Of a DNA stretch of 64,000 bases, positions 5,093-31,101 are shown one piece after another. A program made the translations under genes and the position numbers. This DNA comes from Ignavibacteriales bacterium (GTDB lineage: Bacteria > Bacteroidota > Ignavibacteria > Ignavibacteriales > Melioribacteraceae). Below the pieces are notes generated by a model. The model was given only the letters and a program-made list of their open reading frames with translations, was not told where the DNA came from and did not search any database. Position 1 is the stretch's first letter, and every line of letters begins with the position of its first letter. The stretch is from contig JAPLFG010000003.1 of assembly GCA_026390795.1 (NCBI GenBank), forward strand, positions 2,232,001 through 2,296,000. The letters are read 5' to 3'.

Positions 5093-6055
5093 ATGAATAC
5101 AAGAATTGCAATCGGAATTGATGTTGGCGGAACGAACACAGTTTTCGGTTTTGTAGATCAAGAAGGCAACTGCATCTATGAGTCATCAATACCCACTCAT
5201 TCGGAACAAAATGCAAATCAATTATTCGAAAGATTGTTTTTGAATATCAATAACGATTTCAAAAAATTTTCCGCTGAGTATAAATTAGTCGGTATCGGTA
5301 TAGGGGCGCCAAATGCTAATTATTATAATGGCACGGTGGAACTTCCTCCGAATTTAAATTGGGGAAAGGTGAATGTTATTGAATTGGTAAAGAAATATTC
5401 TTCTCTTCCAGCCGCAATTACAAATGATGCAAACGCTGCTGCGATAGGAGAAATGCTTTTTGGTGCGGCAAAAGGAATGAAAGATTTCATTGTGATAACA
5501 CTCGGTACAGGTCTTGGAAGCGGAATTGTTGTTAACGGAAAACTTGTTTACGGCGCAGACGGATTTGCCGGAGAGATCGGTCATACAATTGTGGATATGA
5601 ACGGCCGGGAATGCGGCTGCGGAAGAAAAGGTTGTCTTGAAACTTATGCCTCCGCTACCGGAATACGCCGGACTGTTTTTGAATTAATGGGCACAACAAA
5701 TATTCCGAGCGGACTTAGGGGAATCAGTTTCAACCAACTGAGCGCAAAAGATATTGCCGATGCGGCAACTCGGGGAGACAAACTGGCATTAAAAGCATTC
5801 GATTACACAGCAAAAGTGCTGGGATTAAAACTTGCCGATGCTGTTGCACATCTTAGTCCGGAAGGAATAATTCTATTCGGAGGACTCGCACTTTCCGGAG
5901 ACTTGATATTTCTTCCAACAAAACATTACATGGAAGAATTCATGCTGAACATATTCAAGGACAAGGTGAAACTTCTGCCATCGGCATTGCCTGGTGCACA
6001 CGCCGCAGTCTTAGGTGCCAGTGCATTGATATGGAATGAATTGAACAAAACTTAA
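5093..6055 (+). CDS. ROK family sugar kinase (glucokinase-like)
   Basis: The 320-residue protein has the ATP phosphate-binding motif GIDVGGTNTVFG at residues 8-19, ITNDANAAAIGE with the catalytic aspartate near residue 107, ITLGTGLGSGIV, the sugar-binding GEIGH, and the ROK zinc motif CGCGRKGCLE (CxCGxxGCxE). There is no N-terminal winged helix, so it is a kinase, not a ROK repressor. It phosphorylates a hexose at C6 in the cytoplasm with ATP. It sits two bases behind the FHS permease, which fits import followed by trapping. Glucokinase is the default call; fructokinase, allokinase and N-acetylmannosamine kinase share this fold. Confidence 0.88.
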   Translation: MNTRIAIGIDVGGTNTVFGFVDQEGNCIYESSIPTHSEQNANQLFERLFLNINNDFKKFSAEYKLVGIGIGAPNANYYNGTVELPPNLNWGKVNVIELVKKYSSLPAAITNDANAAAIGEMLFGAAKGMKDFIVITLGTGLGSGIVVNGKLVYGADGFAGEIGHTIVDMNGRECGCGRKGCLETYASATGIRRTVFELMGTTNIPSGLRGISFNQLSAKDIADAATRGDKLALKAFDYTAKVLGLKLADAVAHLSPEGIILFGGLALSGDLIFLPTKHYMEEFMLNIFKDKVKLLPSALPGAHAAVLGASALIWNELNKT

Positions 6056-27009: not shown

Positions 27010-28419
27010 ATGATCATTTCAAAGAACAAAATCGTAACAGTTTCTCTAGTACTCTTTTCTATTACATTATTTTCTATCATCAGCGGATTCTTCAAGATAT
27101 CCAGCAGTATTAATTCGGGTCTGGATATGGACGGTATATTTTATTATTCGACCAATATTATTTTGTGGCTTTCAGGTGCTTTACTGTTTAATACTTTTAT
27201 GCACAAAATTATTTGGGGCAAAATTTTTAAAACTTCAGCAGGTTCCAAAACACTTGGACTAATTGAGGACCTAACCGTTACCTTAATATATCTTATAGCA
27301 TTGTGGATCATAATTGTCGAAGTTTTTGATCAACCATTGACTTCTTCTCTAGCTGTTACATTTTTAATTCTCCTAGTGGTTATAACTTACTTAAGACCGA
27401 AAATTCTAAAGTACTTCAGCAAAGAATTTATAAGTACAACAAGACCATTTAAAATTGGAGATTGGATAAAACTTATAAATAAAAATGGTATTGATATAAT
27501 TTTTGGTGAGGTAATTCATTTTGATAGAATGGCAATCCAATTGAAAAGCGAAAGGGATACCTTCCTTTTATTCCCCAATAACCTGCTAGACGAATTTATA
27601 ATAGAAAATTACAGCAGAATTAAAAAAGAAAATCGATTTAGTGTAGTAATAAAATTAAACTCTGGTTTATCAATAGAAAGAGTCAAAAGAATTTTGTTTG
27701 CTAGTACCAAGCAGGCAATTTTAGAATTAAATAATCATGTTGCTGCTCAGCCGCAAATTATCGTAGGCAAAATGATGAAGAATACTATTGAATATAAAGT
27801 CAATTTTTGGATAATTCCGTGGAAACCCAACTCACCAGAAATTGCTACTGATTTTGTCCTGACTCAAATAATTAATAACCTAAAAATTGCCGGCATAAGA
27901 TTGGGGGCAAAGACTGATGAACCGGAAACTCATATTATTGAGAATGTTGCTCTTTTTGATTCATTAAGTGAAGAAGAATTGGAAAAACTTCATACGGAAT
28001 CAAAGCGGGAATTTTATACTGAAAGAACCACAATAATTAGGCAAGGGGAGAAGGGAAATTCCATGTACATTCTTGCCGAAGGATTATTAAAAGTATTCAT
28101 AAAAGCGGATAAGAATACAGATGAAGAAATAGAAGTTGGAATGATTACCCCGGGTCAATTTTTTGGAGAAATGTCTTTGTTCACCGGTGAAGAAAGATCT
28201 GCAACAATCTTAACTGAAACGGATTCTATTGTGGTTGAAATTACCAAAGATTCGTTAAAAAAGATTTTAGAAAACCGGTCGGAATTAGTTAATGAATTTG
28301 CTAAAATTATTGCCGAGCGGCAGAGTGGTAACATTCAAAAGTTGGAACGTTATAAGATCAAAGACGACTCATTTATCAAGAAAATTATTGTTAAAATAAA
28401 ATCCTTCTTTGAATTATAA
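27010..28419 (+). CDS. MscS-type channel with C-terminal cyclic-nucleotide-binding domain
   Basis: The 469-residue protein has four likely membrane helices (about residues 7-27, 45-65, 80-100 and 108-126), an MscS beta domain (TRPFKIGDWIKL, then LFPNNLLDEFIIENYSR) and an MscS C-terminal region to about residue 300. Residues 315-450 are a CRP-like cyclic-nucleotide-binding domain whose phosphate-binding cassette reads FFGEMSLFTGEERSAT, with the ligand-contacting Glu and Arg kept. This is the bacterial cyclic-nucleotide-gated (bCNG) branch of the MscS superfamily, thought to gate with cAMP or cGMP in the inner membrane. ATG at 27010 follows GGGAGAT. It is monocistronic. Confidence 0.88.
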   Translation: MIISKNKIVTVSLVLFSITLFSIISGFFKISSSINSGLDMDGIFYYSTNIILWLSGALLFNTFMHKIIWGKIFKTSAGSKTLGLIEDLTVTLIYLIALWIIIVEVFDQPLTSSLAVTFLILLVVITYLRPKILKYFSKEFISTTRPFKIGDWIKLINKNGIDIIFGEVIHFDRMAIQLKSERDTFLLFPNNLLDEFIIENYSRIKKENRFSVVIKLNSGLSIERVKRILFASTKQAILELNNHVAAQPQIIVGKMMKNTIEYKVNFWIIPWKPNSPEIATDFVLTQIINNLKIAGIRLGAKTDEPETHIIENVALFDSLSEEELEKLHTESKREFYTERTTIIRQGEKGNSMYILAEGLLKVFIKADKNTDEEIEVGMITPGQFFGEMSLFTGEERSATILTETDSIVVEITKDSLKKILENRSELVNEFAKIIAERQSGNIQKLERYKIKDDSFIKKIIVKIKSFFEL

Positions 28420-28426
28420 ATATCAC

Positions 28427-28455
28427 TTGACGAATTAATTATATTTATTTACAAG
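28427..28455 (+). promoter_or_regulatory. Candidate sigma-70-type promoter before the tandem repeats
   Basis: TTGACG at 28427-28432, a 17-base spacer and TACAAG at 28450-28455 place a transcription start close to 28461, the first base of the first C-rich repeat unit. The match to the -35 box is 5 of 6 and to the -10 box 4 of 6. It lies eight bases after the channel gene's stop and no coding frame follows, which favours a non-coding transcript. Confidence 0.4.
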
Positions 28456-28460
28456 AAATA

Positions 28461-28774
28461 AATCTTCTCCCCCCAGGTAGATCGTTCAATTAGAAGATCT
28501 TCCCCCGGATGAAGATTAATTTCAAGCAAGATTCATTTTATAATTTTTAGCTCCTGGTAAAAATTATATTTATCTACGAATTAAAAAATCTTCTCCCCCC
28601 AGGTAGTTCTTTCAATGAAAGATCTTCCCCCGTTTGAAGATTAATTTCAATCAAAATTCTTCTTAAAATTTTTAATTCAATAAAAAATTTATATTTATCT
28701 AAGAATAAAAAATCTTCTCCCCCCAGGTAGATCATTCAATTAGAAGATCTTCCCCCGTATTATGATTAAAATCT
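28461..28774 (+). repeat. Three tandem C-rich hairpin repeats (candidate multicopy sRNA locus)
   Basis: Three units start at 28461, 28587 and 28711 (periods 126 and 124; the third is cut short near 28774). Each begins AATCTTCTCCCCCCAGGTAG and about 40 bases later has GATCTTCCCCCG. In units 1 and 2 ATCTTC and GAAGAT pair around a CCCCGGAT or CCCCGTTT loop (28497-28516 and 28622-28641), so C-rich loops are exposed. Unit 2 also has TCTTTC-AAT-GAAAGA at 28608-28622. The AT-rich lead-in TATATTTAT(C/T)TA is repeated too. The array fills the gap between two convergent genes and encodes no protein. C-rich exposed loops could pair with Shine-Dalgarno sequences; strand and function are inferred. Confidence 0.75.
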
Positions 28775-28782
28775 TATTCACT

Positions 28783-29091
28783 TCAATTTCCCAATTGTTT
28801 GTCACATTCAGTATCATCATTCGAATCCCAGTCTTTTAATATCTTTTCCAAATTTGTGGAAAAAGAATCCAATGCTTCTCGATAATCTTTTATCCCTTCC
28901 ATTGTACTGCCTAAATCTGCAAGTTTTAACGAAATTTTCTTTTTAAAGTCCAACGCATTTTCATCAGACCCTAATTTTTCAAGAATGTTCTCCAAATCAT
29001 TTTTGATCATAAATGATAGGTCATCATCCTCAGGCGTAATTTTATTTTTTTCCCCTAAGGGGTCATTTTTATTCTCTTTTAGTAAACTCAC
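28783..29091 (-). CDS. Hypothetical protein, about 102 residues
   Basis: I do not recognise this protein. It is acidic, soluble and mostly helical (DLENILEKLGSDENALDFKKKISLKLADL, given here by its positions about residues 32-60), with a hydrophilic N-terminus and the end DDTECDKQLGN. GTG at 29091 is preferred to TTG at 29103 because GGGGG lies about six bases before it. That SD-like G5 run is complementary to the C-rich loops of the neighbouring tandem repeats. It lies downstream of, and on the same strand as, the signalling cluster, but a 530-base gap separates them. Confidence 0.5.
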   Translation of the reverse strand: MSLLKENKNDPLGEKNKITPEDDDLSFMIKNDLENILEKLGSDENALDFKKKISLKLADLGSTMEGIKDYREALDSFSTNLEKILKDWDSNDDTECDKQLGN

Positions 29092-29103
29092 GTTTACCCC
29101 CAA

Positions 29104-29634
29104 CTTGGTTTTATACAGATTATAGTTGATGTAATTCTATTCGCTATCATCTTTTTACTCACCTTTAAGGAGCAAATATATTTTTCTTCACATCTTGTAA
29201 CTCATCAAAACTTGTATAAAAATGAGAGAGAAATTGTATCTCTCTTTACTATTTTTTTAGCTATGAGCCAACCTTCCATTTGAACAAACTTCAAACCAAT
29301 TCCTTGCTTTACCTTTAGTAATTATTTCTCAATCTTTTCTGAAATCTCATTAATACTAATTCTGACTAAATGAATAAGTAGAGTCGAATTGTTCTTAGTC
29401 ATTTCTTTGTTATTCATTTTAAACTCGAAATCAATTGACACATCTTTTTTATGGTTCAATAATTCTCCTTATCCTATACATATATTCGATTGTTAGGAGA
29501 AAGTGTTAATAATCAATGTTGTAAGTGGGCTTTTCTTGTAGTAAACGGCTCTATTCTAGTGCGAAAATTATCAATTAATTTGGTCTATTCGAATGGATGG
29601 AAAATAAAGTCCCCCAATATTGAATTTTGGTCTA
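29104..29634. other. Non-coding gap with a hairpin and an orphan promoter-like site
   Basis: This 531-base gap holds no convincing gene. A 7-base-pair hairpin AGAGAGA/TCTCTCT at 29225-29245 is followed on the plus strand by TTTACTATTTTTTT and on the minus strand by CATTTTTAT, so it may be a weak two-way terminator for the kinase cluster. At 29435-29463 TTGACA, 17 bases and AATAAT form a near-consensus promoter on the plus strand with no plus-strand gene after it. TTTGGTCTATT occurs twice (about 29579 and 29626). Confidence 0.4.
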
Positions 29635-30018: not shown

Positions 30019-31101
30019 TTATTTGGCTAATGGTATTCCAAATTCAAAAGCTGTATAAGATTTTTCTTTGCTATCAATTTTTATATAACCATTATTTAGC
30101 TCCACTATTTTTTTAACTATTGCTAAACCCAATCCTAATCCCTCAACTGTTTCATCTTCTTTTCCAAATTGATTAAAGGGGCTGATCTTTTCGATTCCGA
30201 TCAATTTGATCCCTTCCCCTGTATCTCTGACTATTGTTCTATAAAATTTTCCGTTCGATTCACCGGTAATATTAATGATGCTTCCATCTTTAGAGTATTT
30301 GATTGAGTTTTCGACAAGCTCATTAATAATAAATTCATAGTGCTGATCAGTTATATTAACGGTGTTATTTTCAAATTGGGACTCAAGATCATTGGCTCTG
30401 TTAAAGAGGGCAGCTTTTTGTGATATTCGCGATTTGAGAAAGTTATGATCAATTTGATATGAATTCCCTTTTGTTTTCAATAGAGTCTCGGAACCATTTT
30501 CATCCAGAAGTAATTCTGCATAGACCAATAGTTTTTCAACTCTTCTTAAAAGCCTGCTTCCCGAATTCATTATTTTATTTGCCATATCTGATAATTCCTC
30601 TCTCGTAAGCGATTCAATATCTTTAGAAATCATTTCGGAAAGACCTAAAATTGAAACTAGAGGAGTGCGTAATTCGTGTTGAACTCTTTTAACTAACGAG
30701 GATTTAAAAAGTTCATCGATTGATTGGTATTTCTCTTTTTTCTTGAAGCGTGATTCTATGGCAGATAAAAGATCGGAACATCTGTAAGGCTTTAGTAAAT
30801 AATCATCCGCACCAAGCGTCATTCCTTCCCTTATATCCTGAGGCTCGACTTTAGCTGAAAGAAAAATAAAAGGGATAGCCGACGTTAATGGATTATCTTG
30901 AAGTCTTTTCAACATCTCTAATCCATTCATCCCAGGCATCATTATATCGCTTAATATAAGGTCAGGCAATCTTTCCTGGGCAATATTATAACCTTCAAGC
31001 CCATCTTCGGCACTAAGAACTTCAAAACCCTCAGTTTCGAGTAAATCGCTAATGTTTTCTCTAATAACAGTTTCATCTTCAACAACTAGAATTTTCTTCA
31101 T
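30019..31101 (-). CDS. Hybrid response regulator-histidine kinase (REC-HisKA-HATPase)
   Basis: The 360-residue soluble protein has an N-terminal receiver (residues 1-120; acidic pair VEDE, phospho-Asp D52 in LSDIMMP, Lys in LLKPY), then HisKA with VQHELRTPLVSILGLSEMIS and an ATPase domain (N box NELVENSIKYS, G boxes DTGEGI and EGLGLGLAIVKKIVE). The receiver-first order means its kinase output is probably set by phosphorylation from another kinase, most simply the large PAS kinase upstream. ATG at 31101 follows GGAGGGG. A 136-base gap separates it from the LytTR regulator. Confidence 0.9.
   Translation of the reverse strand: MKKILVVEDETVIRENISDLLETEGFEVLSAEDGLEGYNIAQERLPDLILSDIMMPGMNGLEMLKRLQDNPLTSAIPFIFLSAKVEPQDIREGMTLGADDYLLKPYRCSDLLSAIESRFKKKEKYQSIDELFKSSLVKRVQHELRTPLVSILGLSEMISKDIESLTREELSDMANKIMNSGSRLLRRVEKLLVYAELLLDENGSETLLKTKGNSYQIDHNFLKSRISQKAALFNRANDLESQFENNTVNITDQHYEFIINELVENSIKYSKDGSIINITGESNGKFYRTIVRDTGEGIKLIGIEKISPFNQFGKEDETVEGLGLGLAIVKKIVELNNGYIKIDSKEKSYTAFEFGIPLAK

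Follow-up and report, generated by a model that had tools for sequence, protein, structure and literature searches.

What is the C-rich repeat that lies between two convergent genes in the window (the whole stretch of 64,000 nucleotides analysed here), and on which strand and on which target would it act? A preliminary description of the locus had proposed a tandem C-rich regulatory RNA. Selection on the element, its predicted fold, its novelty with respect to Rfam and its complementarity to a run of five G's (G5) ahead of the adjoining small gene speak for that proposal, whereas the promoter that went with it, and a broad set of targets, are not supported. We regard the element as real, constrained and uncatalogued; it is probably a regulatory RNA able to block the G-rich ribosome-binding site of the small gene, by a mechanism that we consider plausible.

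The array, its relatives and its conservation

The three-unit C-rich array is confirmed. Three tandem units of 124–126 bases do lie between the convergent genes (Table 1), with 62-nt cores that start 126 and 124 bases apart, and Tandem Repeats Finder gives a period of 125, 2.7 copies and 84% matches. Unit 1 reads, in order, AAATCTTCT, C6, AGGTAGATC, the inner loop, GATCTT, C5 and GAAGATT. The near-identity of the cores, with C6 and C5 at fixed places, proved true of all seven copies that we found. The ATCTTC/GAAGAT stem reported for units 1 and 2, which is the outer stem of the fold described below, is intact in both, and unit 3 shows it with two mismatched pairs. Unit 2 does carry the TCTTTC/GAAAGA form of the inner stem.

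We searched for the core by blastn over 96 genomes and with a covariance model built from the seven copies. The model search of relatives had been set beforehand as a check, and it found the core in three further genomes of the genus. The copies are thus distributed over four genomes of one genus, with three in the genome of the window (G000), two in G005 and one each in G010 and G001. With blastn at E up to 1, 93 of the 96 genomes gave a match; values of 4.4e-11 or better occurred just in these four, and the matches in the other 89 were at 4.4e-6 or worse, most among the matches listed being short ones that fall within the AT-rich portion of the query. The covariance model scored 80–91 bits in the same four among 79 genomes of the family, and among 164 genomes of the order it returned them again together with one match of 27.2 bits (G131). 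In an even sample of 395 phylum genomes it found the window's own genome and G010 alone, G001 and G005 being absent from that listing and taken as not drawn.

The G131 match and the weak model matches in five genomes of the family (G045, G007, G046, G006 and G013; 21.6–25.3 bits) do not have the two C tracts and were put down to chance. A search of genome contigs for the exact pattern returned nine stretches, of which two belong to the contigs of G010 and G005, while seven appeared by eye to be unrelated beyond the pattern, as did both stretches returned from viral sequences. G013 also has a hairpin, GGGGGAAG...CTTTCCCCC (L051, 342–369), just ahead of a putative gene that we take to resemble the one for ribosomal protein S10.

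Table 1. Features of the locus, in coordinates of the window.
Feature	Position	Strand	Remarks
MscS-like channel gene with cyclic-nucleotide-binding domain	27010–28419	+	convergent neighbour
Intergenic region holding the array	28419–28783		between the two convergent genes
Promoter-like TTGACG-N17-TACAAG	28427–28455	+	proposed in the preliminary description
Unit 1 core	28460–28521	+	90.6 bits
Unit 1 outer stem, 5' arm	28461–28467	+	partner arm 28511–28517
C6 tracts	28469–28474 (unit 1), 28595–28600, 28719–28724	+	
Unit 1 inner hairpin	28476–28503	+	
C5 tracts	28502–28506 (unit 1), 28627–28631, 28752–28756	+	
Unit 2 core	28586–28646	+	inner stem TTTC/GAAA replaces TTC/GAA; 80.4 bits
Four T's behind unit 3 outer stem	28707–28710	minus	
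Unit 3 core	28710–28771	+	two outer-stem mismatches (TATTATGATT); 86.7 bits
Small gene	28783–29088	minus	about 101 aa, helical; GTG start 29088–29086; proposed target
G5 in small-gene leader	29097–29101	minus	TTGGGGGTAAACGTG
Response regulator-histidine kinase gene	30019–31101	minus	leader GGAGGGG in the window, AAGGGGG in G001

No Rfam family reached its gathering score over the window, and a permissive Rfam search of 28380–28800 gave six hits (best E 0.63), all far under their gathering scores and none of them LhrC. The earlier view that the units have no kinship to a known RNA family is in line with this. An alternative is that the array works at the DNA level, as a protein-binding repeat or as a small mobile or REP-type sequence. 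Its short dyads (GATC...GATC and AATCTTC...GAAGATT) would fit, and so would the tandem copy number, which varies from one to three, with a duplication in G005 that takes in the end of the MscS-like gene. However, the dyad does not continue through the C tracts, because both tracts lie on the same strand; REP/RAYT sequences occur as dispersed copies, whereas the three strong core matches in the whole of the window's own genome are all within the array; and plasmid and phage collections gave no blastn match at E 0.01. We consider an action at the DNA level improbable.

Selection on the cores had been argued from near-identical cores set among drifting spacers. Within the window this contrast is modest, with cores 85–90% identical, the two full spacers 80% and shuffled spacers 63%, so that the window alone makes a modest case. 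The comparison across genomes is what bears the claim out. Among the three genomes with an MscS-like neighbour (G000, G005 and G010) the core is 84–92% identical, and four-fold sites of the adjacent MscS-like gene are only 39–58% identical, those of a better-conserved aldo-keto reductase gene nearby being at 54–61%; by this measure the core is under selection. The two G005 copies are 82% identical to each other, and comparisons with G001 give 78–84%. Since the small protein is just 50, 51, 35 and 36% identical to the window copy in its homologues, the alignments also indicate that the non-coding core is far more constrained than the gene that accompanies it. A neutral tandem duplication devoid of function could account for spacers that are 80% alike, which do suggest that the array is partly young, but not for a core conserved between genomes whose adjacent gene has diverged so far at four-fold sites, and we judge it very unlikely indeed.

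Predicted fold of the units

In the RNAalifold prediction an outer stem of 7 bp leads into an internal loop, which has C6 on its one side and three C's of the C5 tract on the opposite side, and beyond the loop lies an inner hairpin. The CCCC stretches had been assigned to hairpin loops. This assignment did not hold, as the prediction places them in the internal loop and a hairpin with CCCC in its loop comes out 5.5–9.5 kcal/mol worse in the five of seven copies where it could be imposed. A fold with exposed C tracts is, at the level of prediction, supported. Lone units on the + strand have z-scores from -1.65 to -5.67, six of the seven being below -2.6, and the predicted probability of being unpaired is at least 0.95 for C6 in six copies (0.67 in the remaining one) and 0.61 for C5 in six copies (0.91 in one). 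On the minus strand the seven lone units range from -0.29 to -3.38. For the whole array the z-score is -3.87 on the + strand, compared with -2.99 for the minus strand. In the minimum-energy fold of the array on the + strand units 1 and 3 pair together, and the centroid retains the own fold of unit 1. In all seven copies C6 follows CUUCU (CUUCA in G001) and C5 follows CUU.

The inner stem occurs as UUC/GAA, UUU/AAA, UCA/UGA and UUUC/GAAA, and pairing is possible in all six distinct versions. In a test that allowed one 1-nt bulge and whose null ignores the relatedness of the copies, shuffled loops matched the total of inner-stem pairing in 0.1% of trials. With random mutation of the consensus, this pairing survived in 19–43% of trials, as tested on three single copies. 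Covariation across the whole structure is weak, and this counts against a C-tract riboregulator: a formal count found 93.3% of cells paired and two double changes, a number attained by 32 of 500 shuffles. No compensatory change was found in the outer stem among the seven copies, and the stem is mismatched in two of them, at two places in unit 3 of the window and at one in the small-gene-proximal copy of G005. A G-to-A change at the foot of the inner stem in G001 produces an A–C break on the + strand and would leave a G–U pair on the minus strand. Conservation in homologues, which the preliminary description had named as the test of its proposal, thus applies to the C tracts, present in seven of seven copies, and to the inner stem, which can pair in all, but not fully to the outer stem.

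The small gene and its G5 leader

Searches of Pfam and NCBIfam at E 0.001 gave no match for the small protein; its structure model is poor (mean pLDDT 61.2), and two PHROG families were each matched by one of the five members, at E 0.005–0.008. At E up to 0.01 its gene is present in four of the 12 genus genomes, which are also those with strong core matches, and among the 79 family genomes its profile exceeds 130 bits in those four again, with weak matches (18.5–22.6 bits) in G022, G016, G107 and G045. The MscS-like gene was detected at E 1e-30 in three of the 12 genus genomes and not in G001, a draft that is 96% complete. Because G001 retains the core with no detectable MscS-like gene, gene content indicates that the element goes with the small gene and not with the MscS-like gene. 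From the small-gene stop to the nearest core end there are 11 nt in both G000 and G005; in G001 the distance is 48 nt, and in G010 an insertion brings it to 163 nt.

The insertion in G010 (L024, about 5680–5780) is an inverted repeat that starts with GTCATTCTGA and ends with CAGAATGACACC, parts the element from the small gene, and has the look of a repeat of the REP or MITE type. In G001 the small gene occurs twice in tandem (L026, 2495–2788 and 3197–3490) with the element in between, and downstream of the pair are genes that on reading look like those for CheW and a chemoreceptor. The window may also encode, on the minus strand at 29322–29459, a peptide of 45 aa whose TTG start is preceded by AAGGAG; this frame is located between the small gene and a gene for 125 aa.

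The position of the element also bears on a different reading, in which it would be a C-rich 3' UTR of the MscS-like mRNA, acting as a Rho entry site or a stabiliser with no target in trans. The first core begins 40–45 nt past the MscS stop in the three genomes that have this gene, and the C tracts are largely exposed in the predicted fold. Against this, G001 has the element without a detectable MscS-like gene, and Rho sites require a C-rich composition, not a near-invariant sequence, whereas the 62-nt sequence is nearly invariant here. We give this reading a small chance.

The G5 that had been noticed ahead of the GTG start of the convergent gene does exist, and it is kept in the small-gene leader of four out of four genomes. 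The leader is TTGGGGGTAAA in G000, G005 and G010, and TCGGGGGCAAA precedes one of the two G001 copies; the copy with G5 in G001 is not the one nearest the element, which lacks it, a point that counts against a riboregulator. None of the 46 other mechanically called ORFs of the window has G5 within 25 bases before its start. In a 400 kb sample of the genome plus the window, where starts were taken mechanically as the first ATG or GTG of ORFs of at least 120 aa and the small-gene start was chosen by comparison of homologues, 2 of 345 leaders have G5, that of the small gene included. In target prediction the duplex with the small-gene leader ranked 10th of 345 for the C6 site and third of 345 for the C5 site; the nine sampled leaders that outrank it for C6 also count against a riboregulator. 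The proposed complementarity of the C tracts to the G5 of the neighbour is supported by the conservation of this unusual leader in all four genomes. The leader of the MscS-like gene ranked third with C6 in the window and was rejected as a target, the match not being conserved in G005 or G010; this gene and the neighbouring aldo-keto reductase gene have ordinary GGAG-type sites.

There is no support for a broad family directed at numerous ribosome-binding sites with G5, since G5 before ATG is not enriched genome-wide (74 sites vs 82 for the reversed pattern). From the G-rich leaders given in Table 1, the linked response regulator-histidine kinase gene is a possible second target. Its match in G005 begins from residue 28 at contig base 3, the leader lying beyond the contig edge, and in G010 the best match reaches only 53% identity and is carried by a different contig. 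An undescribed family of tandem riboregulators, known so far from one genus, that would present two C tracts in an internal loop and be genetically linked to a gene whose G5 leader it masks, possibly with the kinase gene as a second target, is a reading that we treat as doubtful. The 3' end of the 16S rRNA is canonical (CACCTCCTTT), so that G5 could also be an ordinary, if unusual, ribosome site; as it can itself pair with the anti-Shine-Dalgarno (with one G–U), it may be conserved only in that capacity. Further runs of G5 in a TTGGGGG context are found at 27903–27907, inside the MscS-like gene, and at 29611–29615 (minus strand, intergenic), and could be chance occurrences or secondary pairing sites.

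Strand, mechanism and known systems

The TTGACG-N17-TACAAG sequence that had been read as a promoter is present, but promoter-like matches around it are not above chance: a scan of 28300–29300 found eight, vs 5.1 ± 2.6 in shuffles, and the proposed sequence is missing from the eight because its second hexamer fails the rule of the scan. Inspection of the flanks of the copies by eye established no shared promoter, and a scan of 28420–28783 found no intrinsic terminator between the convergent genes on either strand. Upstream of the small gene there is a terminator-like hairpin at 29224–29246, readable on both strands, and a TATAAAA box was seen by eye about 9 nt ahead of G5; on account of these two signals the small gene may be transcribed alone.

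The + strand is favoured by the better folding of lone units, by a C6 that is mostly unpaired in the prediction, and by the G5 leader. On that strand the element would be a conserved structured RNA in one to three tandem copies, each unit of which would form the outer stem and the inner hairpin and present C6 and part of C5 single-stranded in the internal loop between them. The RNA would start near unit 1 or, where the MscS-like gene is present, be the 3' end of its mRNA. In the cell, the C tracts would pair with the leader of the convergent small gene at its G5, in competition with the anti-Shine-Dalgarno of the ribosome; this would lead to repression, and additional copies would increase dose or avidity. 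Such a tandem C-tract riboregulator is supported here by the conserved core, the number of copies, the association with the small gene, the predicted fold and the conserved C-to-G complementarity. We favour it tentatively, at somewhat less than an even chance, as a riboregulator that would mask the G5 leader with an action like that of LhrC or RepG.

The minus strand could instead be the working one, the element then being a structured 3' end of the small-gene mRNA that serves processing, stability or termination and exposes G tracts. This strand is favoured by the T's after the stem, by the closeness and linkage of the element to the small gene, kept where the MscS-like gene was not found, and by the G–U pair retained in G001 where the + strand pair breaks. 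Three to five further T's follow the outer stem on the minus strand in six of the seven copies, which counts against the + strand reading; unit 2 has four of them and unit 1 just one before an A. With no ordinary intrinsic terminator between the convergent genes, and with a whole array that folds better than shuffles on this strand too, the outer stem and the T's could form a weak intrinsic terminator, perhaps aided by a protein or by a G-quadruplex of G5 and G6. However, a GC-rich stem with a short loop and a T run is not what this strand offers: a 7-bp AU-rich stem around some 43 nt, with the inner hairpin enclosed, makes a poor terminator and leaves the invariant G tracts of the loop unexplained. 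Further, in both arrays the copy closest to the small gene has a damaged stem, lone units fold less well than on the + strand, and in G010 an insertion separates the element from the gene. We hold a function of the minus strand to be rather unlikely, and even with that strand at work the element would be a constrained, uncatalogued sequence.

If the + strand reading is true, the array would be a multicopy C-tract regulatory RNA outside every Rfam family, and a clean case in which a regulator stays linked to its G-run target as the protein encoded by that target diverges. Little work on small RNAs came to light for the lineage, which the preliminary description takes to be Ignavibacteriota; a full-text search under that name returned no paper. 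Because C6 and G5 are both conserved, compensatory mutations could test the mechanism directly.

Judged by the features compared, the functionally closest systems would be LhrC and RepG, and the layout recalls the CcsR locus, the array being a member of none of them. LhrC1–5 of Listeria are described as multicopy RNAs of 111–114 nt with several CU-rich (UCCC) sites each, which bind a G-rich site upstream of the start codon and impede translation (PMC4132741). The array resembles them in having several UCCC-containing sites per RNA, with C6 and C5 predicted unpaired at 0.67–1.0 and 0.61–0.91 in seven of seven copies. It differs in that its C tracts lie in a predicted internal loop, its putative target is adjoining and convergent, it has no Rfam match, and no terminator was found on its C-rich strand. 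RepG of Helicobacter pylori has a C/U-rich single-stranded site, located in a terminator loop, through which it pairs with a homopolymeric run of G's in the leader of an mRNA; its target is a distant chemotaxis receptor gene in which the G-run varies in length (PMC8295292). The array shares a G-run in the leader of its putative target complementary to a C-rich site, with G5 present in four of four genomes and rare elsewhere (2 of 345 leaders). Unlike RepG, it is tandem in two of the four genomes, and its G5 is constant in all four.

Cuckoo RNAs carry a C-rich motif. At the CcsR locus several small RNAs lie in a row beside a DUF1127 small-protein gene with which they are co-transcribed (PMC10253847). 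Tandem units adjoin the gene for a short protein in both systems, but the C-rich strand of the array is antiparallel to the small gene, whose product, with no Pfam or NCBIfam match, shows no DUF1127. The usual loop motif of CsrB and RsmZ is A(N)GGA. Sponges of this type, which are mentioned in PMC4132741, display a repeated exposed motif. The minus strand of the array would likewise present G-rich loops containing GGA; what the array conserves, however, is the G5 and G6 tracts and not A(N)GGA.
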